A stretch of 41,318 nucleotides of DNA from Gryganskiella cystojenkinii (Eukaryota; Mortierellomycota; Mortierellomycetes; Mortierellales; Mortierellaceae). The notes beneath the pieces were generated by a model that was given only the letters and a program-made list of their open reading frames with translations, made no database searches and was not told the origin of the DNA. How positions within the stretch are numbered: the first letter of the stretch is position 1; each line of letters opens with the position of its first letter. The stretch is from assembly GCA_015852425.1 (NCBI GenBank), contig JAAAIG010000180.1:1-41318 (forward strand), written 5' to 3'. A program made the translations under genes and the position numbers. Shown here piece by piece: positions 2,720-41,318 of this stretch.

Positions 2720-5432
2720 ATGCTGCGCGCAATCTCTTCTAAGACTGCCGGTCGCATCGCCCGTCAGACTGGAGGTAAGGCAAAGACCGACAAACACCTC
2801 GACCTGATCTCGGCCATTCTCTCTTTTTCGGACCAGTGGCTTCGAACCCTTCAAGTAGAAACCATCAGTCCAGTCCTAACCGCAATGTCGACTATGCGAC
2901 CACTGGGACTCGAACTCAAAAAAGAGAGAAAAGGCCGACCTACAATGAATTGGACTGGACGATTGCTACCTTACTTACAAGCAGTTATTGTCTAATTGAC
3001 ACCTCTCTTTTATGGACTCTAGCACGCCGTCACTTCCGCACATCCGCCGTTGCCAAGAACGAAGTCGAGGTCTTTGTCGATGGCAAGTCTGTCAAGGTGG
3101 AGGCTGGATCGGCTGTCATTCAAGCATGCGAGAAGGCAGGCGTTCATATTCCCCGTTTCTGTTACCACGAACGTCTGTCTGTGGCCGGAAACTGCAGAAT
3201 GTGTCTAGTCGAGGTAGAAAAATCACCCAAGCCCGTGGCTTCATGTGCTTTCCCTGTCATGCCCGGAATGAAGATCAAGACCGATACCAAGCTCGTCAAA
3301 AAGGCCCGCGAGGGTGTCATGGAGTTCTTGTTGGCGAACCACCCTCTCGACTGCCCCATCTGTGATCAAGGAGGAGAGTGCGATCTTCAAGATCAGTCTG
3401 TTCGTTATGGATCCGATCGTGGTCGTTTCACAGAGGTCGTTGGAAAGCGCGCGGTTGAGGACAAGGATCTCGGACCTTTGATCAAGACGACCATGACCCG
3501 CTGTATTCATTGCACCCGTTGTGTCCGTTTCGCGAACGAGGTCGCTGGATTCCAGGATCTCGGAACATCTGGACGTGGAAACGACATGCAAATTGGAACT
3601 TATATCGAAAAGACCATGAACTCTGAGGTAACGGATCATTTATTGCGCTCCGCTCTTGTTTTTTGATGCAACCTTTACTTACGTCTTTGAATGACGTGCT
3701 AACCCTGGTTCCACCATTCTCTTTATTATATTCAATCCTTCAACGACAAACATTTTTCTCATTACAATCGGATCACGGAATGACAACGTCAATGGACATT
3801 GGATGCAACAGCTCTCTGGAAACCTGGCAGATGTCTGTCCCGTTGGTGCCCTTCTCTCCAAACCCTATACCTTCAATGCCCGTCCTTGGGAGCTCAAGAA
3901 CACAGAGTCTGTTGATGTCTTGGACGCCCTCGGATCCAACATTCGCGTCGACTCTCGTGGTGTCGAAGTCATGCGTATTCTTCCCCGCTTGAACGAGGAG
4001 ATCAACGAGGAGTGGATCTCGGACAGAACTCGCTCAGCCTATGATGGTCTCAAGACTCAACGTTTGACGACTCCTATGGTCCGCAAGGGCGACACCTTTG
4101 TCAACGTCAACTGGGCCGAGGCTTTGAACAAGGTCGCATCGGAGATGAAGGCTGCTGGAACTGGTATCAAGGCCATTGCTGGACAATTGGCCGATGCCGA
4201 GTCTCTTGTTTCACTTAAGGATCTCGTCAACAGACTCGGATCCGAGAACGTCACCGTCGATAACAAGCGTCAGGATACCCCCGCTCACGGCGCCGACTTC
4301 CGCTCCAACTATCTTTTGAACTCGACTATTGCCGGTATTGAACAGGCTGATGCCCTTCTTTTGATCGGCACCAACCCCCGTCACGAGGCTGCCGTCATGA
4401 ACGCTCGTATCCGCAAGTCCTTTGTCTACAACGGATTGAACGTTGGCCTCGTTGGCGCGCCCGTTCCTCTGACGTATGACTATGACCACATTGGCGCTGA
4501 CACCTCTTCCCTCGAGGCCTTAGTCTCTGGCAAACATGCATTCTCTGCTCAGTTGGCAGCTGCCAAGAACCCTATGATCATTGTCGGTAGCGGTGTCAAC
4601 GACTTGTCCGATAGCGAGTATGTCTTCTCAGCCGTCTCCAAGATTGTTGGTCAACACAAGGACAAGTTCTTCCAGGAGAACTGGAATGGTTACAACGTCC
4701 TCCAGCGCGTAGGTTTATTTTTCCGTTGTTCTACTACGACAATTTATTTTGTGTCCGCATGCTAATTTGTGATTTATGATATGAATATGCGAACTATAGG
4801 CCGCCAGTAGAGCCGCTGCTTATGATATCGGATTTGTGCCCCAGACACAGGAGACCGAGAAGACCAAGTTTGTCTACTTGCTCGAGGCCGATGAGATCTC
4901 TGCCAGCGATATCCCCAAGGATGCCTTTGTCGTCTACCAGGGTCACCACGGAGATGTTGGAGCACAGTACGCTGATGTGATCTTGCCAGGAGCAACCTAT
5001 ACCGAGAAGAGCGCCACATACGTAAACACGGAAGGACGCCCCCAGATGACCCGTGCTGCCGTTCCACCGCCCGGAGCTGCTCGTGAGGACTGGAAGATTA
5101 TCCGCGCTCTCTCTGAGGTTGCTGGAGCGACCCTTCCCTATGACGATGTCCACCAGGTTCGCGACCGTCTTCGTGATATCGCGCCTTCTTTCGCGCATTA
5201 TAACGTTGTCGAGCCAAGTTCTGTCGCCGTTGCCTCTTTGGGTCTTTCTACGTTGAACAAGTCTGGAGTCAAGTCTTCCAAGTCGTTGTTGACGCCGGTT
5301 ATCTCGGACTACTACATGACAGACTCTATTACCCGTGCATCCTCAACAATGGCCAAATGCTCGGTAGCGTTCTCAAACGGTTTGCACAGCCAAGAAGAAA
5401 ACGAGTTCAAGCTGGAGGAGGCAACCAATTAG
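2720..5432 (+). CDS. NDUFS1: NADH:ubiquinone oxidoreductase 75 kDa subunit (complex I), mitochondrial
   Basis: Iron-sulfur subunit of the peripheral arm of respiratory complex I, passing electrons from NADH/FMN towards quinone in the mitochondrial matrix. Exons 2720-2774, 3023-3627, 3812-4708 and 4800-5432 join in phase to 729 residues, the usual family length. The N-terminus ([15 protein letters not shown], then RRHFRTSA) is a basic, hydroxylated import presequence. [2Fe-2S] ligands: C65, C76, C79, C93. First [4Fe-4S] cluster: H125, C129, C132, C138. Second: C179, C182, C185, C229 (the last in DVCPVGAL, just after the exon 2/3 junction). The rest is the molybdopterin-oxidoreductase-like domain. 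All ligands are present, so it should be functional. It starts 464 bases from the divergent Crypton 1 gene; no co-regulation can be inferred. Confidence 0.97.
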
Positions 5433-6153: not shown

Positions 6154-8561
6154 ATGGCAAAGCTCGGAGCCAGACGTTGCCTCAGGAGAGTCGTGGCTCT
6201 CACCGTAACTATGTCCCTCCTGGCGGGGGTCTCTCTTCACTCTATCCACGATCGGCCTTCACTCTTCTTCACCTCGGCTGCACCCACAAGCGACCTGTCA
6301 CTAGGCAGAGAGCCAGAAACAGCAAACTTGTCCAAGCGACAAGTAACTCCCATTCCATCACCACCTCCACTCGACCCTGGAACGGACTACTGCACAGTTC
6401 TTGGTAGTATGGAAGAACCCGAGATCTTTTGGCAAGACGTCCAACGATGTTACAACATTATCCCCCACAACGCAACAGAGGCTGACATTGTCCTCCAGAC
6501 GCTCTATACCTACTACCGCGACTACTACATCTTTATCGACAGTGCCATGTTAGAGAACCAACAAAAACCGTTCACGAATCCACCAGTCGATATCCTCCAA
6601 GGGTTGGATGAGATTTCCCAGAAGAAATACACGAAGGACTTTGAGTTCCACGGCGATATTGAACTGTTGATTAACCGTTTGAATGATGCTCATGCGAACT
6701 ACATGCGTAAGTTTGTGGTGTTGTGTTTCCTTTTTTTTTTTGAAAGTGGTCAAAATGGCATAGAGGTTGACATCGAGTGTTGACGCTTGCTTTAACATTT
6801 TATTTGCATTGCTCATCCATAGCATCATGCTATCGACATTATCTTTTCCAACAACCATTCTCTCTGTATGCTCCTGTCATTGATGGCGTCCAGGTAACCA
6901 GACGAGACTAGACGAACACTGCACCTGCACTGTTCACAAGTGTAGAAATTAACCTTTCTGGCACCTTTCCCTTGCTCCTCCATCGATAGTCAATACGAAT
7001 TTTGGACGACAGGACAGGCAGGGGACTGGATGACTGTGAGATCCAAAAGATTAACGACAAGGATGCGCTCGAGGCTGTTCAACACTGGGCCGATTTACAC
7101 ACGGGCATCTCCAAGGATGCAGGAGTCCGACTCAACAAGGCTCTGTCACAACTCGTCTACAGCTCTAACGACAAGGCATGGGGTATGGACATGGGACAAT
7201 ATCTCTCTCGAGTTACGCTGCCAGAATCCCCGGCTTTGGTTTATCAGATACAGTGTCCTGCAAGTCCAGAATACCCAGAGGGACAACACGAGGTTCTCAA
7301 AGTTGATTGGGAGGTCTATCGGTTACGGTCTTGGCAAGAGTTTGATTCCAAAGAACAGTTCCAGCAGCGCTGTTACAAGGAACCAACAAGTAACGAACCC
7401 CTGCTACAACGGAGAGCCGGCAAGACCAAACAAGACTTTGGCCACCAAGCCTCAGTCGTGACCTCACGCCATGTCCTCAACGAACAGGCTATGATCTCGC
7501 GACAGCAGCAACAAAAACTGTGGGAACCTTCCTTAGTCAAACGACAAGCTCAGGATATCAAAGTCGCCACATTGGTCTTTAACGGTACCACGACGGCGTT
7601 CTTTCAACTCATCAAGCGACCTACTATCGGTGTCGTCATCATCCCCACGCACTCTGTGAACCAAACAGCCGAGGTCCAGGTCTTGATCGACGGATTTCAA
7701 AAGTTATTTGATATCGGCGTTCGCAACGTAATCTTGGACATGTCCAACAACGGTGGCGGGTATGTTAACTTTGCGTACGACCTTGTCGACTGGATGTTCC
7801 CCGACCACACTACGACTTCTGTTTACCGTTCGGACCTGAGATCATCTATGAGTGTCAAGGCCTTGGCTCGAGAGGATCTGAAGCGAGAGGACTACAACGG
7901 CTACTTCAATCCGGATTCTTTCTCGGACCCGGATACAGAAGAGGTCCACGAAACTAATTTCTTTATTCAGGATCGGATCCAACGACGTGCCAAGAGACCA
8001 ACGGATTATACCCGCCAGGTGTTTATGAACCACAACCTCGGATCATTCGAGATGGGGATGCCCTGGCAACATGACGCGGAAAGGATTGTGGTTTTGACGG
8101 ATGGTGCCTGTGGATCTGCTTGCGGTATGACTTTGAACCGACTCAAGAACCGTCATAACGTAAAGACCTATGCATTCGGAGGTCGTCAGGGAGAGGACCT
8201 GAGCATGTTTTCCTTTGCCGGTGCTTCCGTATACCCTCTGGATTCGTTGATGGAGGATTTCGAGGCTCTGGGAGTCGATTCCCCGATGCAGGAGATGAGA
8301 TACCAGGGAACCGTCCGAGTGCCCGTAATGGAGTTTTTCCAAGAAGACGATCCGCTGCCTATCGAATATAACCCAAAGCTATACAAGGCAGACTTTCATT
8401 TGGATTATACGCCAATCACAGCCAGGAACCACGAACTGTTGTGGGAGATAATTGCAAACAATCATTGGAAGGAAGAATCTCAGGGTCCCGGCGCTGGCGA
8501 TGATCCCTCAATCGAGAAACCAAACACTCGACCGACGAAAAGGAACACATCATTAAACTAG
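6154..8561 (+). CDS. Secreted peptidase S41 family protein (tail-specific/CPAF-like serine protease)
   Basis: Likely extracellular serine protease of clan SK, family S41. Exons 6154-6706, 6823-6893 and 6990-8561 join in phase to 731 residues. Residues 1-30 (two-arginine N-terminus, then VVALTVTMSLLAGVS) form a signal peptide. Exon 2, only 71 bases, completes the segment DAHANYMPSCY followed by LYAPVIDGVQ, typical of the region before the PDZ-like part in CPAF-like fungal proteins. The catalytic domain starts near residue 400: DMSNNGGGYVNF matches the conserved glycine-rich segment and DGACGSACG carries the probable nucleophile S584. A catalytic serine context within GSA is expected in this family; general base and oxyanion partners cannot be assigned by eye. 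The start is the ATG giving a clean signal peptide. Substrate unknown. Neighbours are unrelated. Confidence 0.85.
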
Positions 8562-16730: not shown

Positions 16731-17861
16731 CTACGCATATACACCAAAAATTTGGATATTGGGATCCTGAACGATGTCGAATCGAACTTTGCCTCTGGGT
16801 CCACCCTGGATGTTCAAGAACTCGCCATCGATACACAGTCGACCTGGCTCTGGCATCTCCAACTCCAAAACCTTGGTCTTGAAATAATCAACCTGATCTT
16901 GTTGAACATGTTCGCCAGTGGCGGTCGCGCCAAACATTTGCATGATCCCTGCTTGATCCACGTTCTGGACCGCGAGGACATCCATCCATTCGTCCGAGGT
17001 ACTCGCGAATGGTGTCGGTGTAAACCCAGGCTCCAACGAGGCTTGCTTTGTGATCATGAAGTAGGTGAACGGACCAGACAACGTCACAGTCGCAGCCGCG
17101 TTTGTTGTATTGGATGTGGCTGTAAGTGCCTTTGATGATCGATCGTAGGTCTGGACGGGGCCTCGGAGAGTTACTGTGGCTGGGTATTGCTTCAGGTTCT
17201 CGACATTCTTCATAGCCGCCTTCCTGAACCGTTCGTTGCCCAGGTCACGGAACTCTTCAGCGTCATAGACGGTTGCACAATGCAATCCAAAGCTGTTGAC
17301 GACCAATGTATAGACATGAACCTTCCACGAGGACAAGTCGTCGAGGGTTGAGACGCTCATCAATTGCAAAGGAACTGCTTGTCCCTTGATAAACCGATTC
17401 ACTGCGTCCTGGACAGACTTTACTCCAAGACTGGTCGAGATAGCGTTCCCAGTGCCAGTGGGGATGATCGAGAACTCGACTCTAGGTCGGAACTCGTCCG
17501 AGATGAACTGGGTGCCCTCGACACCTCTCAGGATCCCGTTAACGATCTCGTGGACTGTGCCGTCGCCTCCGAGGACCATGACCTGTAAGGTAGCTGTGTT
17601 AGGTCGAGGGATGGACTCTCCATCCTCCGCGATGGAGGAGAGGGACTGGACGAGGTCGGTGAGGATCGGTTTGATGTTATCAAAGAAATAGGACTGAGCA
17701 TGCCCCTGAGCCAAGGATTCGATCAGCTTGAAAGGTTTGTTAGCTTGGGCGAGGGCGGGCTTGACGACGGTGTTAAAAACCTCGAGCCCTTGTTTGAGTC
17801 CTGAATGGGGGTTGAGGACGACGAGTAATGGGAATTGATCAGATGTTGGAAGGATTCCCAT
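16731..17861 (-). CDS. Lipid kinase with diacylglycerol kinase catalytic domain (sphingoid/diacylglycerol kinase-like)
   Basis: Predicted to phosphorylate a lipid (sphingoid base or diacylglycerol) with ATP. Single exon of 376 residues. The DAGK catalytic fold shows LVVLNPHSG (13-21), the nucleotide loop VLGGDGTVHEIVNG (96-109), IPTGTGNAIS (133-142), and the C-terminal lobe motif LCIDGEF expected to close the metal/ATP site. Start chosen at 17861 (MGILPTS) because the fold begins at once. The frame stays open upstream to an ATG at 18113, but that stretch is arginine/serine/phenylalanine-rich and runs over a poly-T tract, so it looks like leader sequence. No C1 domain, transmembrane span or PH domain is present, so it is a short, soluble, YegS/sphingosine-kinase-like form. 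Substrate cannot be fixed from sequence. Confidence 0.88.
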   Translation of the reverse strand: MGILPTSDQFPLLVVLNPHSGLKQGLEVFNTVVKPALAQANKPFKLIESLAQGHAQSYFFDNIKPILTDLVQSLSSIAEDGESIPRPNTATLQVMVLGGDGTVHEIVNGILRGVEGTQFISDEFRPRVEFSIIPTGTGNAISTSLGVKSVQDAVNRFIKGQAVPLQLMSVSTLDDLSSWKVHVYTLVVNSFGLHCATVYDAEEFRDLGNERFRKAAMKNVENLKQYPATVTLRGPVQTYDRSSKALTATSNTTNAAATVTLSGPFTYFMITKQASLEPGFTPTPFASTSDEWMDVLAVQNVDQAGIMQMFGATATGEHVQQDQVDYFKTKVLELEMPEPGRLCIDGEFLNIQGGPRGKVRFDIVQDPNIQIFGVYA

Positions 17862-18333
17862 GATTGTAATTGCTTTTGTTTTTAAAAAAAAAAAATGGAA
17901 GCGAGAAGAATGGAAATAAAGAAACTTAGTCCAAAAAGAGAGAGCGAGAGATGAGAAAGAAGCTACTGGTGATGAAATGAATCGACGAGGAAAACGAAAG
18001 AAAGAATGCAAAGGAGCGACGAACTGCGCTGTGAAATATGAGGTCCCTGACCGTTGTCGGTTCCTGCGCAATTGAGCCCGATTCAAACGCCATCCCTTTT
18101 TGAGCATCGCCATTTTGACAGGACCGCGCGTTCAGCGCGTTATCTTTTTCTTTTTCGTCCGTCTTCATATGAAATCAAAAGAACTTTTTAATGATGTTGC
18201 ACAGTTAACAAAAAAAATGGGGAAAAATAAAAATACAATGATGTGAGTAATGTGAGTGAGGGGAATCGTTATGGCTCTTCTAAATCTGAGTGTATGTCTG
18301 TTCTTTTCTCAAACAATTTTTTTGTTTTCTTCT
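17862..18333 (-). other. Intergenic region, lipid kinase 5' flank and histidine kinase 3' flank
   Basis: 472 bases between two minus-strand genes, with A-rich runs at 17881-17894 and 18210-18236. No extra gene is supported. Confidence 0.5.
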
Positions 18334-21300
18334 TCATCCACGAATGGTCCTAATACTCGACGTGTCCGACATGGAGATGATACTGCTCCTCTGGCTGTTG
18401 TTGCTACTGCTGTTCGGATGCGTGTTCGCGGTATGGAAGGAATCCGTTTCCGTGGTCGTGGTCTGGAACGTGTCCATGGTATGGAATGTATCTACGGTCG
18501 TATTCGAGGACACTCTGTCCAATTTAATACCCTCAGGGTACATCACTGTTGTCCTCCTTCTCCTCCTCTGCTGGGCATCTTGACCATCGTCTTCACTGTC
18601 CGATTCCTCCTCTTCTTCAGATTCAGAGTCACCAGCGCTGAGAATCAAGTTGGCGTCGACCATGGGGATCTGGCCTGCGGTTGGGTCTTGCAGAGTTATA
18701 GATCCACCTCGACTGCGCGCACCGTCCTTTTTCCGGGCCTTGCTCTTCTCCCGAGCCACCCTGCACTCTTCGGTTCGAACAGCAACCATCTTGAGTCCAC
18801 CACCACCTCCGTCACGACAACCTTGAAGCGTTGCATCTGCATCATCCATCAACAACGGATCGTTACTCATCCGCGCATTCCGTCTCCGGGTCGCCTCAGA
18901 GCTTCCATTCTTCTCGCTGTCCAAGAGTCCAAGACCGATCCCGGTCTGGCCATTCTCTGTGATCGCGATCTGATCCGCACCGGTTTCGCCGTGCTCATCT
19001 TCGTCATCGTCATCATCCTCCTCTTCTTCCTCATCCATGACGATAGCACGTTCGAGTGGTGGAATCTCAGTTGTGGTCCTGGGTCCAGTCAGAATCGCCA
19101 GGCTACGCTTCTGAAGCATCTCCCGTTTCTTCTTTTGGATCAATTTCCTTTGGTTTAACAACTTGAGCTCCTTTTCAGCCTTGGCTCGATCGTCCAACCA
19201 TCTTTCGAGGATCACAACGAGTTCTTCTTTTCGAATCGGCTTGGACAGGTACTGGTTCATACCACTTGCAATACACTTTTCACGATCCCCGGGCATCACA
19301 CAGGCAGTCATCGCGACAATAAAAGGTTCTTCCGCGGTCACGCCTTGGACCGTGGATCGGATTTCGGTCGTGGCTTGATGTCCCGACATGACCGGCATCC
19401 AGATATCCATAAAAATGATATCGTACTGCTTGACCTTGGGATCCGGTTCCGAATCATCACCGCGGGCAGCGGCCGCCTCGCGAGCCTTGGCCACAGCCTC
19501 CGCACGAGCACGACAGAGCGCCACGGCCTCTTGGCCGTTATTCGCCAGTTCAGGGACAATACCCATACGACTCAACATCTTGGAGATGACCTTTTGATTC
19601 ACAGGGTTGTCATCGACCAACAGGCACTCGAGTGATTCGAGTTGTCGTTTCCGTTCATCCGCACGACGGTCGTGGTCTGGTACGGCACAAGAGGCCAAGG
19701 GCCAAGAACCTGTCATGATACCATGGAACATGGGCAAGAGTTTCGATTGCTTGACGGGCTTGATCAGATGACCGACGGAGGCATCGGCATCCGAGACCGT
19801 ATTAGAGTGGAAGTGAGGTGCAGTAGTCGTAGGTGAAGAACACTTGTTACCGCTGCTGCTGGCGCTCGAGATACTTGAGGAACGATCGGAACGACAAGCC
19901 CAGGGTTGAGCAACCAACATACCACTGTTCATGGTGTTGGGAGTGCACTTGGATTGTCCAAAGGAGGAGGCTGAAGATTCTGTTTTTGAGGTCTTTGTGT
20001 TGCCGGTCGGAGGGTCTAGAGTACTGACCTCGTTCAGATGCGAAGACCCAGTGGACTTGACATCCTTGATGGACAAAGCCGCGGTAGGTGACATGGGGCT
20101 GACTGGTGATACACTTCCACAGCTGCTAGTCGCATAAGGTGACAAGTTTGCAGACGTGGAAGAAGAAGATGACGACGACGACGCATCTGCATGTTGAAGG
20201 AGTTGATGATGAATATGATGGTTCCTGCGGTGGTACGAGACCAGGACACAAGGCACAGCCTTGTTAGCGCTTCGGGTCACACCGATATTCCTGTCATTCT
20301 CATCAAACTGAATGCTTTGGATCTGTTCCAGAACCGCCAATCCGGGGTTGACCTTGGCCTGAGGCTTATCGATATCGATCATGATCATGTCCAAAAGGTT
20401 GGGGTTATTGCGGATATAATCCATGCCCTTCTGTACACTGAGGACGATAGTCTTTTGGAAACCCCAAGTGGAAGACTGGTATTGCCAAGAGGTTCGGGTC
20501 ACACGGCGGTCATCTAGGATCAAAAGAGTCTTGTCCCGGAAAAAGGCCAGGTTCAGCTGTTGGGCAACAGTTGGGCTCGAGTTTGGAGAGTTGAGCAAAG
20601 TCGAAAAGTAAAAGGTCGAACCGACACCTTCTTCGGATTCTGCCCACTAATTATGCATAGGGAAAAAAAAATAAAAAAATAAACAAAGAAAAGGATAATT
20701 GTTAGAAAATGAAAAGGCTCATAAAATAACACGTTGCAAAAATACATGATTTTCAGTCTGTAAATTGTGTCATCTTACCATTTCACCCTCCATTAGCTCA
20801 ACAAGTTTCTTGGAGATGGCAAGACCGAGTCCCGTGCCTCCAAAGTTCCTGGTCACGGAATCGTCTGCCTGAGAGAAGGTCTTGAACAACCTGTTCATCT
20901 TGGCGGCAGGGATACCGACGCCCGTGTCCGCGACAGACCACAAAAGATCAACATGGTGGGTATCGGGGAACTCATCGCGCTCCTTATCATGATGGCTACG
21001 AACGGATCGCCAACTTTCGACTGCCGTCGAGGATCCAGAAGAAGAAAAGTTGCCTAAATTACCAGCATCGGCGACACGACTTGCACTTGGACCACGAGCA
21101 TGACGGCGCGGCGGCGACTCTTCCAACGATGATTCGGAAGATCCCTTGTCCGCATGGAGCATTAACTGAGACGATTCCTGAATCGACGAATGACGATCAT
21201 CCGCATCGTCATCATCATCCTCATATGTTCTCGCGCCACCAGACAGTTTGGGCTTGGGTTCCAACTTGACGACAATGTTTCCCTTGTCCGTAAACTTGAT

Positions 21301-24300
21301 CGCGTTACTCAGCAGGTTCAAAAGAATCTGACGAATGCGGACCAAATCTCCCAGGACCTGGACAGGCGTATCCGGATGAACCACAAACGTCAATCCAAGA
21401 CCTTTGGTCGCGGCCTGAACAGAGACCAAGTTACAAACGGATTCCAACAGCCAGGGCAAATCCAGTGCCTCGGGCATGAGCTTGAGTTTTCCAGACTCAA
21501 TCTTGCTGAAATCCAAAATGTCGTCAATGACAGCCATGAGTTGGTTACCACTTGACTCGATCGTCTCTGCACAATCCATCAAATCGGGCGCAAGATCGGA
21601 CTCTAGCAGGATTCGGGACATACCGATAACGGCATTCATGGGGGTTCTATTCAGAGAGAAAAGAAAAAAGAATGATATTAGCATAAATTTCAAAAAGAAA
21701 AAACTGTGTCAAAAAAATAAGAACAAGTTATTTTCATACCTGATCTCGTGAGACATGTTGGCCAAAAAGTTGGATTTCGCAAGTGCAGCGGCCTCGGCAT
21801 GGTTTTTGGCCAATTTCAAATCGACCAAGAGTGCATCTGTCCTCAATCTCTCTTCCTCCAGCTCGGCGGTACGGGTCTGCAAGTGTGTCGTTCGGGTCCT
21901 GACCAGCTCCTCCATATCATTTGCATACTTTTCCAGCAGCGCGGCCATCCCACCAATCATATCACCATCGGGACTGATCTGTCTCAACCGATGCAAGATA
22001 TTCGAAAATGATGGTCTCAACAGCGCCTCAGGCTGCAAACACAACCGGATCAAATGGTTCACAGCCCCAATAGATTCATCCGAGGCGTCATCCAGCAAGA
22101 AATCCGGTCGCAGGTTATCAAACTTGATCCGGTCCAACAAATCTGCAGGGTCCATCTCCTGAAGTTGAGCCGCATAGGGTGAGGTCCTCGTCATGATCTC
22201 GTTAAAGACAATACCGGCACTGTAAATATCACCCGATCGACTGGCCTTCTTGTGGAAAACATTGCCACGGTGGACCAAATTCTCAGGTGCGATCCAGAGT
22301 CCATCCAAGATCTCCTTGCCGGTCCTGGCGACATGGAAGGGGGCATCGTACATCTCGTGAGTCTCAGTGTGCTGTTCTGACGTTGGCGACGAGGGTATCG
22401 AGGTAGAGTGGAAGGAGCCTACGGGTCCGAGACTTTCGATACTGGAACGGAAGTTCGGAATCCTGGGTCCGCTCGTGTTGGGTCCTGTGATTCCGGCGCT
22501 ACTTCCATTGGGAGCCGTGATCGTCAACGCAGGCGTATTCTGAGGGACTGCCGAGTTAGAGCGACCGTAAACATTGCGCTGTGTCTCATGAAGACCCGTC
22601 AATCCGTACCCACCGACCTTGACCTCCCACCGACTCGTGATCAGACAGTTACTGGACCGAAGATCACCATGGAACATGATCTTGGATTCATGCAAAAACT
22701 CCATTCCGCGAGAGATATCGCTCATGAATGACAACTTGAAGAGCCAGTTGAAATTCAAATCCGGGTTGGCGAGAACTTCGTTCAATGTGCCCTTGGAGCA
22801 ATGCTCATAGACGAGACAGATATCTGGGGGTTGAAGACAGACACCAACGAGTTCAACCAGTTTCGGGTGACGCAAATCCATGACATCCATGATTTCGACC
22901 CGAAGCTTTCTTGTCAGGTTGACCTTGGCTCCTCCAATACGACGGACAAAGACTGGGAGGTTACGGTAAACTCCAATTGCGTTCCCGGATTCATTCATGG
23001 GCTGGATACCATACGCACCTCCAACAAACGTGGAGTGACTCCGGTTGAACCGCCCTGTAGGCCGGCCTTTCTTGGACTTGGACACCCGTCTGGCGACCAA
23101 ACCCTTCTCAAGGTTCGAAGCCTGTTCATCAACATCCTCGTTCCGGGGATCCAAGCCGGGTCCCGAATCGTCCTGATATTCGCCCATAAGTCTTTTGTAA
23201 TCCAGCTGCCAAGAGTCATCATAAAGCCTGCGATGACGATTCCGGGTCTTGAGGTAATACATGACCAAAGCGGCAATCAACGTTACCAGGATGACCAGAC
23301 CGATCGGTAAAAAGATTGCCAATGTGTTGTTGGTAGACTTTTGCTTTTGCAAGAAATAATCCTGGCAGGCGCCATTGTTGTTAGGGTAATCGTCACAGTT
23401 GAGACAACTTATGGAACCAGTCTGGTTCGTGAACTTTCCGAACGGGCAATCCTTACACTCTTGACTGTTGTACGTGTCACTGTAGGTATGAAGCTTACAG
23501 GGTTGACAATAAGGACGACCGACATGGTACCCACTCGGCAATTCACAATACAACGAGGCTCGATCCCTGTCCATGGAAAACTTTTGGCCGCGATCACAGA
23601 CATAATCGACTTGTGAGGGTCCTGTGGCGATGAAATCCCAGGTCTTGTCCTGCAAAACTGTGGAGAACGCGAGCTCAAAGACAGACATGAACCCGTTCAA
23701 ATACGACTGTTGCGACCAGACCTTTTTGACTTTGCCGTTCACATAGTCCGCTAATGCCGTCGGAGACCTTCCAGTCGTCGTAATGAGCGTGTCGTCATCG
23801 AAGATGTCCAAGGAAGCGACATACTTGACAGCCTCGAATAAAATGGTCGAAGTCGAGTGGATACTATCGAACTTATACGTGGCCTTGAGATCGCTCAGGG
23901 TTCTGCTCAACGATGAGAAGTCCCCATTGTTGAGTCTGACACAGACTGTATCGAAAGCGGGCAACGATCCAGCGCCACGAAGCATCTGCATCCGATCGTA
24001 CAGTCCTCGGCACATCAACATTTGTTCCTCTGGTTCATCTATCTGGACGACACAGATGGGGTGTTGATAACCCGAGGACAAGATCGTATCCGCATACTGG
24101 GTTCCAGCCTCGTATCCGTTCTCGCCCACCCAGGAGAGGTGTTGATAATAAGTCCAATTATAAGTCGAACCTATCCCGACGATCGGCAATGGTAGGACCT
24201 TATCCGTTGTGTGGTTCCAGGGCGGGAGTTCATGACAGTTATAAGTCAAGGCCGGGTTCCTGTGAGTCTCGTCACATCCGAGCTGCTGAGTCAGATTTTG

Positions 24301-26409
24301 GGCCGCTGTTCGAGCCGCGACATCGACCAGGGTCCGGTTAAGCGCGTAGTTGATCTGGGAAGCATGCGTGTTACTCATGATCAGACCTTGGGTCATGGTA
24401 TCATTCAACGCCAGGTCGACACTGTACTCAACCACGTCCAGACGAGGATTCGTGTAACGGTACTCGGTCATAGTCCAGTTGAGAAATGAAGCTGCATCTC
24501 GAGCTCCAGTCGCCATAGCGTCCCAGTGGCTGTTGGTAGGGGTGCTGTCAACGTCAGAAATACAATATAAAAAAAAGTTGGTGTTAGTGAACATAGTTCA
24601 ATATATTGTAGCGCATAAGAGTATCGATCTTCAAAAAAAAATCCTTTAAGATACAATACCTTCCAGTGATGATACTGAATTTTTGTGAATAATCCAAGAA
24701 ATCCGCCGCGTTCCATGTCTCCTGTGCAAGCATGTCCTGGGCATTCTGCGCCGTCACGAGCTTGGGGCCTGTCAGGATTTGGTTCTGGTTTACACGCTCA
24801 CCCAAGTTCAACTGAACATAGAGCAACAGAATAGGGATCAAGGTTTGCAAATACGGCAAACTCGAGATCGCATAATTCAGGCTTCCGGACTCGATAGCCC
24901 TCATCATGGGTTGACAGAAATCAAAGGCCGCGTATTTGAATTGTCGACTGTCGTTCAGCGCCAAGGAAATCTGGGCATGATTCTCCATGAAGGCCGGTGA
25001 GGTCAAGTAGACGACACCGGTCACACTCTTCATGTCTTTAATGATGTCGACGACGGATTGTGAGAAAGCTGGTTGGGTCGTATTGCGTGGTCGATCCGTA
25101 TAGATGACTCGCTGTGTGATGTTGCTGGGGATCGAGATGCCAGCGTCCAAAAACGCCTGCAAGACACCACGACAACGGTCCAAGAGAGTTGGGATCCTGA
25201 CGATGCCGTTGATACAAATAAAATCCTTGACACCTAAGACATTCCAATTAAAAAGTAAAATCGACTGTTGTTAGAAAAAGAACAAAAGTGCTTGTAAAAG
25301 TCCCAGACCCTGAAATTTCTCAATGAACAAAGATAAAAAAAATTGAAACTCACCATCATGAATGAATTGTTGACCAATAAGCCGACCAGACTCGAACTCA
25401 TCTGCCATGACAGCCAGGATACCCAGTTCCTTGGCAGCCTCGAGCCCTGTGTAAACAGCAATGACGGGGATCCCACTGTCTCGAGCTAATATCAGAGGTT
25501 CCCTCAAGGCTTCGAAATCAGGAATGGAGACGATGATGGCATCGACCGGGTATTTGATAGCGTTATAGAGAGAAGAGCTCATCCGTGCAGCATCGTAGTC
25601 GATTCCTGCAAGTTCGTCGGTAATGGAGACGTAACGAGGCAGGAACGATTTTGCGTCCAGTCGACTGACTTCGCCGGTTGAGGATGTGGCTATGTTGTTG
25701 TTGATATTGTTTGTTTGTTAAGATGAAAAGATGAGGAGGGAAACATTATTGTAATGGTTAGTCCAACGGATCGACAGAAAAAAAAACAAAGGGATCGACC
25801 GTTAAAAAAAAAAAGAAAAAAAGGAAATAGCGGAAAAGGAGGTGAAGAGAAGAGTGATGATCGATATTGTCGGGGTGGTGTGAGCTGGTCTGTGTTGCAA
25901 AAAAAGAGGGCTCTCGGGATACATGATGTTTTGTTCATTTCTTTTTTTATCGCTCCTTCCCACAGCTTACAATGTGTAACCACGGAAATGCGGAATTGTC
26001 GTTGATCCTCTGCGCACGCTGGCCATCCATAGGGGTTATCGGTAGCGTTGGTAAGCCCGGGGTTGACTGGAACTACCGGTGGTTGAGTCGAGGTCGGATT
26101 TGGTGGATTTATAGCAGAGGGTGTTGGAGGGAGGGGAGGAGGGGGGATATAGGCGGTTGTGGTCCCAGAACTAGAATGGATGATTTGGATCAGAGGTTGA
26201 TCCTGGGTTGGACCACTCCACTGGGCCTGAGCCCGCAAGATCATCCTCGGTTGCAAGTCGATGAGGCACAGAAAGAGGGAGAGGAAGAGGAGGAGGGCAG
26301 GGGCTTTGGAGAGGTTGCTCAGTCGTCGAAACAGTTTCGTAGGATGAGCTGCTACCCTTGGGAGGCGGGGCAGCTGAGCAACTGTGGATGCAAAGCCGAT
26401 GCCCCTCAT
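18334..26409 (-). CDS. Receptor hybrid histidine kinase with guanylyl-cyclase-receptor-like ectodomain and pseudokinase
   Basis: Membrane sensor kinase of 2,444 residues. Exons 26409-25971, 25689-25354, 25233-24660, 24544-21740, 21646-20779 and 20646-18334 join in phase. Order: signal peptide (about 36-60); P/T-rich linker; first periplasmic-binding-protein-like domain (about 135-440; DAIIVSIPD, GIPVIAVYTG, FESGRLIGQQF); second such domain (about 452-760); cysteine-rich stalk (about 765-848); membrane span 857-880; protein-kinase-like domain (about 970-1300) with HGDLRSSN at 1075-1082 but GGYG where DFG is expected and no clear VAIK lysine; coiled coil (about 1310-1370); HisKA with H1382 in NMSHEIRTP; HATPase_c with N1499, then DTGVGIP and GGTGLGLAIS; a degenerate receiver (D1765); a canonical receiver (D2088, KP loop present); acidic low-complexity tail (about 2150-2444). 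Expected to autophosphorylate H1382 and pass phosphate to D2088. The ligand is probably a small molecule such as a sugar. Pseudokinase plus coiled coil resembles receptor guanylyl cyclases. Confidence 0.9.
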
Positions 26410-39473: not shown

Positions 39474-41318
39474 ATGGCCCTTAACCACGGCCACAACACC
39501 AAGCCGACAAAGTCAAAGGTGAACATAAAGTCACCCGAGTACCTTGCCAATTACAAAGAAATGCTCGGCTTGGTCGATCAACTCAACGAACGTCTCCAGG
39601 AAGCAACCTTTCAGGGATCGGATCGACTCTTGGCGCTGCACCACAAGCGCGGGTCCATCCTCGGTAAGATGTATCCCGAGCGACAAAGCATAATATTATT
39701 GTTGTTATTGGAAAGGAACCAGAAGAAATAATATAACGGCAAGTAGAATACTAAAATTGGTTCGTCATTTTTTTTCTAATAAAATATATTGTGAAATACT
39801 ATAGCTCGCGACCGTATCGAGCTGTTGCTCGATGATGACTCCCCATTCATGGAACTCTGTCCCCTGGCCGGTTACGGACAAGACGAGATGACCGTTGGAG
39901 GATCTCAGGTTGCTGGTATCGGTCTTGTCTGGTAAAGAGGAGAACCGTTACTGTGAAACAGCGCGCTGTCCTTTTTTCTTCTTTTTTTTTGTCACCACAC
40001 CCATGGGTTTCGCGACACTCTAAGCCAAACGATGCCATTTCTTTTTAATATTTCTGTACGCTACTTTAGCGGAGTCGAGTGCATGATCACGGCCAACATC
40101 CCAACCCTTCAAGGAGGCGCCTGGAATGCAATGACAATGGCTCGTGGACAACGGATCAGCGAGATAGCCTGGATCAATCGACTCCCTCATATTCAACTCG
40201 TTCAATCCGCCGGAGCCAACCTCGCTCAACAGAGTCGAGTGTTTCACCCCGGTGGAGCAGGATTCCGTCATTTGGCTGAGAGGTACCGTGCCACAGACTT
40301 ATCTGCCTCCTTTTTCCTTTTCTTTTTTTTAAAAAAAATTTACCTGCAAGGATCTCTAACCCACTGAACAAACATTCCTCATGACTGTTAGATCCAAGGC
40401 CGGTATTCCTTCTGCCGCGGTAGTGTTCGGAAACGCGACTGCAGGAGGCGCCTATATCCCCGCTATGAGCGACTATGTCGTCATGGTCAAGGAAAAGGCT
40501 TTCATGTTCCTCGGCGGTCCTCCCTTGGTCAAGATGGCGACAGGTGAGATCACAGATGCCGAGTCCTTGGGAGGAGCAGACATGCACAATCGTCGTTCAG
40601 GGGTATCGGATCAACTCGCCATGGATGATTACCATGCCATATCCATGGCCCGTGAATTCATCTCGGGTTTAAACTGGATCAAACAGGGCCAACTCCCCAT
40701 CCGTCATCTCAAGGGCCATTTCGATCAACCTCTTTACGATCCGGACGAGATCTTGGGCATCGTCAGTGCCAACATCCGGATCCCGTTTGATGCTGCCGAG
40801 GTCATTATCCGACTTGTGGACGGATCGAGGTTCACCCAGTTCAAACCTCTATACGGTCCCAACCTAATCTGTGGCTGGGCCACGATCCATGGCATCCCTG
40901 TGGGCATCCTTGCCAATAACAATGTCCTCTTTCCACCTGAAGCCAACAAGGCGACTCAATTCATTCAGCTTTGCAATATGCGCGATACTCCGATCCTGTA
41001 CCTCCACAATATTACTGGGTTTATGGTCGGTAAAAAATATGAAGAGGAGGGCATCATCAAAGCCGGATCCCGGTTCATCAACGCCGTTTCGAATTCTCAG
41101 GTCCCCTGTATCACGATCGTCATGGGCGCGAGTTATGGTGCGGGCAACTATGCGATGGCCGGACGAGCCTACAACCCGAGGTTTTTGTTCTCGTGGCCAA
41201 ATAGTAAATGCTCCGTCATGGGTGCGGAGCAACTGACGGGTGTCCTGGATATCGTCATGCGAGACTCGGCCAAAAAATCTGGAAAGGTCATTGATGAGGA
41301 GATGGCCAAGGCCTCGAT
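39474..41318 (+). CDS. Acyl-CoA carboxylase beta (carboxyltransferase) subunit, 3' end outside window
   Basis: Carboxyltransferase half of a biotin-dependent acyl-CoA carboxylase (methylcrotonyl- or propionyl-CoA type); it moves CO2 from carboxybiotin to the acyl-CoA. Exons 39474-39663, 39805-39931, 40070-40282 and 40392 onward join in phase, about 485 residues visible. Family marks: [33 protein letters not shown], the N-lobe oxyanion region [31 protein letters not shown] with [14 protein letters not shown], and the C-lobe [36 protein letters not shown] and [26 protein letters not shown] replaces the more usual VDSGGAxL loop, closer to certain bacterial acyl-CoA carboxylases than to mitochondrial MCCC2. 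No clear targeting presequence is seen ([17 protein letters not shown] is only mildly basic). Substrate preference cannot be decided; the partner biotin subunit is not in the window. Confidence 0.88.

Follow-up and report, generated by a model that had tools for sequence, protein, structure and literature searches.

Animal receptor guanylyl cyclases (RGCs), such as natriuretic peptide receptor 1 (NPR1, or GC-A) and guanylyl cyclase C (GC-C), combine an extracellular binding domain, one membrane span, a pseudokinase with the motif HGxLxSxxC, and a signalling helix with LEKYAN or MEQYAN, an RT and an LL..ML-like end; the RGC ectodomain is ANF_receptor (PF01094) and the output a class III guanylyl cyclase (PF00211). 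In fungal hybrid histidine kinases, among them the Sln1 type and groups X and XVI, one chain contains HisKA, HATPase_c and a receiver. Eukaryotic histidine kinases have reportedly been surveyed by Kabbara and colleagues in 2019. Here we describe a gene with features of both systems on the minus strand of a 41,318-nucleotide stretch of Gryganskiella cystojenkinii DNA (assembly GCA_015852425.1, contig JAAAIG010000180.1, positions 1 to 41,318; "the window"). Its predicted product belongs to a conserved receptor family in which a pseudokinase and helix of RGC type are coupled to a hybrid histidine kinase, behind an ectodomain different from that of RGCs.

In the text portions of Anantharaman and colleagues (2006; PMC1592074), a signalling helix precedes histidine kinases and RGC cyclases alike; it follows a kinase domain in animal RGCs only, and the fungal versions are of the Sln1 type, with the helix ahead of HisKA. 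Parts of the article by Kiss and colleagues (2019; PMC6733946) report no receptor-kinase-like architectures in fungi except hybrid histidine kinases. A Mortierella elongata survey describes unprecedented histidine kinases with membrane helices, and its text portions name no kinase homology domain (PMC5285503). The Blastocladiella rhodopsin-guanylyl cyclase BeGC1 is likewise a sensor-output fusion in an early-diverging fungus, but there a rhodopsin is joined to a cyclase, and the term "kinase homology" is absent from the paper (PMC4046227). No description of the present layout was found in the open PMC literature, judged by titles and the starts of abstracts; the figure and supplement of PMC5285503 may cover it. 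Some public record names hint at the RGC link ("RGC/RGC protein kinase" in Podila verticillata, "Receptor-type guanylate cyclase gcy-13", "natriuretic peptide receptor B"), and others read "histidine kinase".

One gene and a conserved family

The gene spans 18334..26409 (minus strand). We rebuilt the gene model from splice signals and obtained six exons (minus strand, 26409-25971, 25689-25354, 25233-24660, 24544-21740, 21646-20779 and 20646-18334) separated by five GT..AG introns. With introns 4 and 5 held fixed, 12 combinations of introns 1-3 were tried, and the single open frame among them encodes 2,444 residues, the same length as the in-phase six-exon gene of an earlier reading of this DNA (the original prediction). 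Residues 56-2444 are identical to the public G. cystojenkinii protein BGZ83_003169 (P0001, 2,389 aa). That model starts at M56 and therefore lacks a putative signal peptide at residues 34-62 (26224..26310, minus), which hydropathy marks by a hydrophobic core and an AxA-like site. We favour the upstream start because of this signal-peptide-like stretch and because P0022, P0050, P0055 and P0080 begin alike, with hydrophobic N-termini of similar kind by eye. A Pfam profile search returned the domain order of the original prediction: from the N-terminus, Peripla_BP_4 (2.9e-15), Ephrin_rec_like (1.4e-5), PK_Tyr_Ser-Thr (5.8e-28), HisKA (8.1e-20), HATPase_c (6.4e-24) and Response_reg (4e-20).

We searched for homologues with the same order of domains, as had been suggested. 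With residues 130-1365 as the query, 68 proteins matched, of which 66, the window's own protein included, come from what we take to be Mortierella-group genera. Kinase, HisKA and HATPase_c are listed in all 66, and Peripla_BP_4 and a receiver in 61 each. A second search, with the kinase region as the query, gave 38 matches. These include 11 Mucorales proteins (Circinella, Radiomyces, Parasitella, Benjaminiella, Mucor, Halteromyces and Chlamydoabsidia), ten of which list HisKA as well as the kinase-like domain; the eleventh, P0078, ends inside the H-box. The Parasitella protein P0080 has the complete architecture. HisKA is listed in none of the 12 distant matches (four animal RGCs, four plant kinases and four others). 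A profile search for wider reach, in which the 8,000 candidates sharing most words were scored, added no new fungal phylum; its 91 matches were mostly ordinary histidine kinases, and it added animal RGCs and Linnemannia fragments. The same genome holds a second family member in several exons (C230:40848-44123, L011-L013, with L002 and L025), and this member has the clade-B motifs HGRLTSMNC, IKKIG and LEKYGN.

Fused neighbours do occur in the annotation of this family, since P0005 lists an extra DAGK_cat and YegS_C, and six close matches of the kinase-region search (P0069-P0073 and P0079) list no HisKA. We therefore considered whether assembly or gene prediction had fused two genes here, with a break near the intron at 21647-21739. 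However, the open frame of exon 4 starts at residue 451 and continues beyond the H-box histidine H1382. This one exon encodes half of the ectodomain (its second part), the span, the kinase-like domain and the coiled coil as well as H1382, which rules out two separate genes. Homologues keep both halves of this layout, with kinase and HisKA listed together in 66/66 Mortierella-group and 10/11 Mucorales proteins and the distance from coiled coil to H-box fixed at 61 residues. As to the six matches, P0069-P0073 stop on reaching the H-box, which is what an exon left unspliced would produce, and P0079 is cut short within the kinase-like domain. The chance of a fusion artefact is thus negligible.

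The kinase homology domain and the signalling helix

The kinase-like domain occupies residues 974-1310 (21964..22974, minus), with a Ser-rich insert at about 1100-1197. It matches protein kinase profiles (PK_Tyr_Ser-Thr, as above), and the original prediction's term, kinase homology domain, is borne out by Pfam, PDB matches and trees, from which we conclude that it is of the animal RGC kind. The best PDB sequence matches were three NPR1 entries (126.8 bits) followed by GC-C (83.1 bits), and the next non-RGC kinase, CTR1, scored 60.2 bits. In the kinase-region search four animal RGCs scored 134, 130, 120 and 84 bits, and plant receptor kinases at most 52.

For the trees, rows were hand-picked from the matches and the genome's own kinases. 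Both trees were flagged for long branches that meet, and the animal RGCs P0092 and P0110 were left out. In the 47-row tree, fungal and RGC domains grouped together, apart from the control kinases (support 99/96), and the 21 fungal domains formed one clade (96/90); the animal RGCs did not form one group, the long branches of P0118 and P0151 joined the fungal side, and P0094 stood among the controls. After removal of ten long-branched rows (37-row tree), the fungal clade reached 100/99, P0094 moved to the RGC side, and the five remaining animal RGCs formed one group with weak support (87/72). Grouping of the animal RGCs with P0067 was not rejected (p-AU 0.32). Nesting of the fungal domains among animal RGCs, as in the 47-row tree, was dropped since the animal RGCs group once long branches are removed. 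P0067 and P0151, both listed with a kinase plus a class III cyclase domain (and P0067 also with a beta-helix domain), are possible non-animal RGCs and would be useful for rooting the family.

The same domain bears on the idea that the protein belongs to a known kinase-bearing group of fungal hybrid histidine kinases (X or XVI) that gained an ectodomain. Group X hybrid histidine kinases carry a GAF domain along with their N-terminal kinase domain, and Pfam found neither GAF nor HAMP in the window protein. Differing also from the Sln1 type, it has a large two-domain extracellular part, one span and an RGC-type pseudokinase before the helix. Ser/Thr kinase domains are indeed present in groups X and XVI, according to portions of PMC8510515, but the kinase-like domain groups with RGCs in trees whose rows leave out known group X and XVI kinases. 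Membership of either group is very unlikely.

The three residues that mark an active protein kinase (VAIK Lys, HRD Asp, DFG Asp) do not occur together in the window protein, which has R984, H1075-G-D1077 and G1095-Y-G at the three motifs. In clade A (n = 54) the VAIK Lys is Arg in 53 members (one unread), 46 retain the HRD Asp, 7 have another residue there and 1 is unread, and the DFG Asp is Gly in 45, Ser in 6 and unread in 3. Clade B (n = 12) keeps the VAIK Lys in 11 (one unread), replaces the HRD Asp by Arg in all 12, and has Gly (11) or Glu (1) for the DFG Asp. The Mucorales proteins (n = 11) keep the VAIK Lys in 9 (two unread) and the DFG Asp in 8 (three changed), and 10 of them carry Cys, Ser or Asn in place of the HRD Asp (one unread). 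Even with unread places counted as possibly intact, 0/77 members could hold all three residues. The HRD Arg is Gly in all 37 aligned rows. We conclude from these residues that the domain is a pseudokinase. If catalysis were dispensable and the fold were not, losses differing from lineage to lineage would be expected, as observed. Were the domain instead an active Ser/Thr/Tyr kinase, the receptor would have a dual output. The good match to Pfam kinase models, the HGD retained in clade A (46/54) and, in Mucorales, the retained Lys (9/11) and DFG Asp (8/11) speak for activity. The combinations, however, are mostly R/D/G in clade A, K/R/G in clade B and K/(C,S,N)/D in Mucorales, incomplete in 77/77 members, and the loss of the HRD Arg in every aligned row points the same way; we consider an active kinase very unlikely.

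The signalling helix (coiled coil, residues 1313-1371; 21781..21957, minus) directly follows the kinase homology domain, as in RGCs. Its resemblance to RGCs extends to about residue 1359 and is interrupted after V1331 by seven additional residues. The C-lobe and helix match NPR1 at 2.8e-11 (LEKYANDMEELVRTRT versus MEQYANNLEELVEERT). Beyond the seven extra residues, which amount to one heptad, RGC likeness resumes (RTAELEEERLRTDALLVDL versus RTRELVVEKKKTDSLLYQM of the annelid Capitella, P0109). For residues 1341-1360, the matching place was the best of the whole protein in 8/8 RGCs. In gapped local alignments with residues 1313-1371 the eight RGCs scored 54-82. For 36 histidine kinases, aligned by the segment that precedes their H-box, the median was 29 and the highest score 56, and the best of 200 shuffles reached 48. 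We read the helix as the RGC helix plus one heptad. A joint in mid-helix, RGC-like and then histidine-kinase-like, was withdrawn because the downstream piece compared had contained the H-box itself. Without the H-box and ungapped, that piece scored a median of 8.5 (-2 to 32) against the 36 histidine kinases and 8 to 29 against the eight RGCs. Held in register after the first RT it scored -6 to -14 against RGCs; with a gap allowed, the likeness resumes seven residues later.

The spacing around the helix is highly regular. LEKYAN (or a variant) and SHEIRTP are 61 residues apart in 52/54 clade-A, 12/12 clade-B and 10/10 Mucorales proteins (74/76); both exceptions are in clade A, one with 75 residues and one without the motif. 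From RPxF to the helix the distance is 27 residues in 47/53 clade-A proteins (the pattern gave 58 in the other 6), 29 in 12/12 of clade B, 31 in 7/10 Mucorales (two not found, one gave 8) and 29 in 6/8 RGCs; in the remaining two the pattern picked up an RP motif further upstream. An insertion of one heptad, constant in length, would preserve the phase of the coiled coil. RGC likeness ends about residue 1359, 13 residues ahead of HisKA, which we take to be about where RGCs pass into their cyclase domain.

These distances also bear on the reading in which the kinase-like domain is mainly a folding or scaffolding module, as an Hsp90-Cdc37 client or a docking site, and the coiled coil controls the histidine kinase directly. 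Parts of PMC10400071 describe the GC-C pseudokinase solved in complex with Hsp90-Cdc37. In clade A the VAIK Lys and the DFG Asp are as a rule both missing, which makes the kind of nucleotide control suggested for GC-A unlikely in these proteins. Still, a pure dock would tolerate drift, and the near-invariant distance from coiled coil to H-box across the Mortierella group and Mucorales, together with an insert of exactly one heptad, suits a mechanical link. We regard the scaffolding role as unlikely.

Ectodomain and histidine kinase output

The binding-protein-like ectodomain and single span of the original prediction were recovered. A first periplasmic-binding-protein-like (Venus flytrap) domain of sugar type covers residues 136-449 (24662..26004, minus, crossing introns 1-3). 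Pfam places the Peripla_BP_4 match at residues 177-401; the nearest PDB match is 4ru1 (1.3e-15), a CUT2 monosaccharide-binding protein, and a rhizopine-binding-protein model matches at 1.9e-33, yet far below the model cut-off. Pfam gave no binding-protein match for residues 450-760 (23614..24661, minus), but profile-profile comparison aligned them to the first domain (probability 97.9, E 5.2e-13, 260 columns), and we therefore describe tandem binding domains. A nine-cysteine linker follows between these and the membrane (residues 766-843; 23365..23598, minus), overlapping the Ephrin_rec_like match at 795-833; its nine cysteines are invariant columns in an alignment of 41 rows. Hydropathy indicates only one strong membrane span, at about residues 857-880 (23254..23325, minus). 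The ligand is perhaps a small sugar-like or polyol-like molecule. The protein thus differs from animal RGCs in its tandem Peripla_BP_4 domains and nine-cysteine linker in place of ANF_receptor, which is listed for the animal RGCs among the matches, in one more helix heptad, and in a HisKA-HATPase_c-receiver output without a cyclase.

HisKA (residues 1372-1437; 21490..21780, minus) holds the phospho-accepting H1382 (21748-21750) and is split by the intron 21739-21647. HATPase_c (residues 1480-1689; 20602..21363, minus) has the N, G1 and G2 motifs and an acidic/serine insert, and is split by the intron 20778-20647. Of the "receivers" in the original prediction, one is clear by Pfam and motifs (residues 2014-2154; 19207..19629, minus), with D2019/D2020, the phospho-accepting D2088 and K2143, and is interrupted by an insert. 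The second, a receiver-like stretch by eye at residues 1711-1830 (20179..20538, minus), is degenerate or not a receiver, and searched alone against Pfam it gave no receiver match at E up to 10. HisKA, HATPase_c and a receiver with H, N, G and D motifs thus stand in one chain, as in hybrid histidine kinases. The best NCBIfam matches of this part are the bacterial hybrid kinases BarA and TorS, all far below cut-off, and the sensor part and pseudokinase have no counterpart there.

These motifs are conserved. SHEIRTP is intact in 66/66 Mortierella-group and 10/10 Mucorales proteins, G1 and G2 in 65/66 and 9/10, and the N-box in 64/66 of the Mortierella group; in Mucorales the first N-box pattern found 0/10 and a wider one 9/10. 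In the 66 Mortierella-group proteins the receiver patterns, which are partly strict and were applied to some partial proteins, found the acidic pair in 62, the phospho-acceptor in 48 and the Lys in 58. The genome has two Hpt matches and 14 receiver matches, with an Hpt protein encoded on C308.

PF00211 is absent from the protein. The single PF00211 match of the genome lies on another contig, adjoining LRR-like and PP2C-like frames (by eye), in an adenylyl-cyclase-like gene whose layout resembles that of adenylyl cyclase Cyr1. A cyclase encoded elsewhere was accordingly rejected as a partner. Within the sensitivity of exon-by-exon searches, the RGC-type pseudokinase of this genome appears to be tied to phosphorelay output only.

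The intron 21739-21647 belongs to a wider pattern: in 4/8 histidine kinase loci of the genome an intron lies either at the H-box motif SHE[IL]R or one codon downstream. L025 and L027 (receptor family) have it at one site and L028 and L029 one codon further on; L026 has no intron there, and L030-L032 have no H-box by pattern. We drew no conclusion from the shared intron as to whether the histidine kinase part arose in fungi.

The adjacent downstream gene (16734-18131, minus) encodes a lipid kinase with DAGK_cat and YegS_C. The annotated receptor P0005 of Mortierella sp. GBA30 also lists these two domains, which suggests that neighbouring genes were merged in annotation and that their adjacency is conserved. 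Elsewhere in the window are two ordinary housekeeping genes, for a NADH-ubiquinone oxidoreductase 75-kDa-like subunit (2779-4762, plus) and a carboxyl transferase domain (40360-41316, plus), and an open frame with a Peptidase_S41 match at 9.3e-9 (6990-8558, plus).

Proposed mechanism, origin and significance

We propose that the protein is a receptor that relays ligand binding mechanically, through its pseudokinase and coiled coil, to a phosphorelay, and we assign this reading a probability of about 0.72. It would be a single-pass, probably dimeric cell-surface receptor whose tandem Venus-flytrap domains bind an extracellular ligand. Domain closure would shift the two chains relative to each other within the membrane, and the RGC-type pseudokinase, without phosphotransfer of its own, would convert closure into a twist or release of the fixed-length coiled coil, setting the hybrid histidine kinase on or off. 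Phosphate would then pass from ATP to H1382, to D2088, to an Hpt carrier and on to response regulators. We infer the dimerisation, the ligand class, the sign of the switch and the relay itself from sequence. Several points weigh against this proposal. The HRD Asp kept in most of clade A (46/54) leaves room for residual catalysis. The highest helix score among the 36 histidine kinases (56) overlaps the lowest RGC scores (54), and those 36 are matches from a profile search rather than a designed sample. The ligand class depends on the weak similarity of one domain.

The original prediction saw an RGC chassis with its cyclase replaced. The RGC type of the pseudokinase and helix holds and a swap fits, but the Peripla_BP_4 ectodomain argues against a whole RGC in which the cyclase alone was exchanged, and either partner may have been the recipient. 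As RGC likeness ends about where the cyclase begins, exchange of the output at the end of the shared helix would be the simplest explanation. In a wider form, this would be a receptor class shared by Mortierellomycota and Mucoromycota. Its RGC pseudokinase-plus-helix cassette would have come from the opisthokont ancestor or from animals and been fused to a histidine kinase at the former cyclase boundary, the phase of the coiled coil being preserved by one added heptad; we give this even odds.

The family unites two features, a helix after a kinase domain as in RGCs and a fungal hybrid histidine kinase. It offers a natural experiment on the control of output by a pseudokinase, in which the same module is joined to two unrelated enzymes. 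If the wider reading is true, the pseudokinase would be a general mechanical relay, independent of the output it controls. The family also bears on the origin of RGCs, and its members are candidate nutrient or host sensors in soil fungi.

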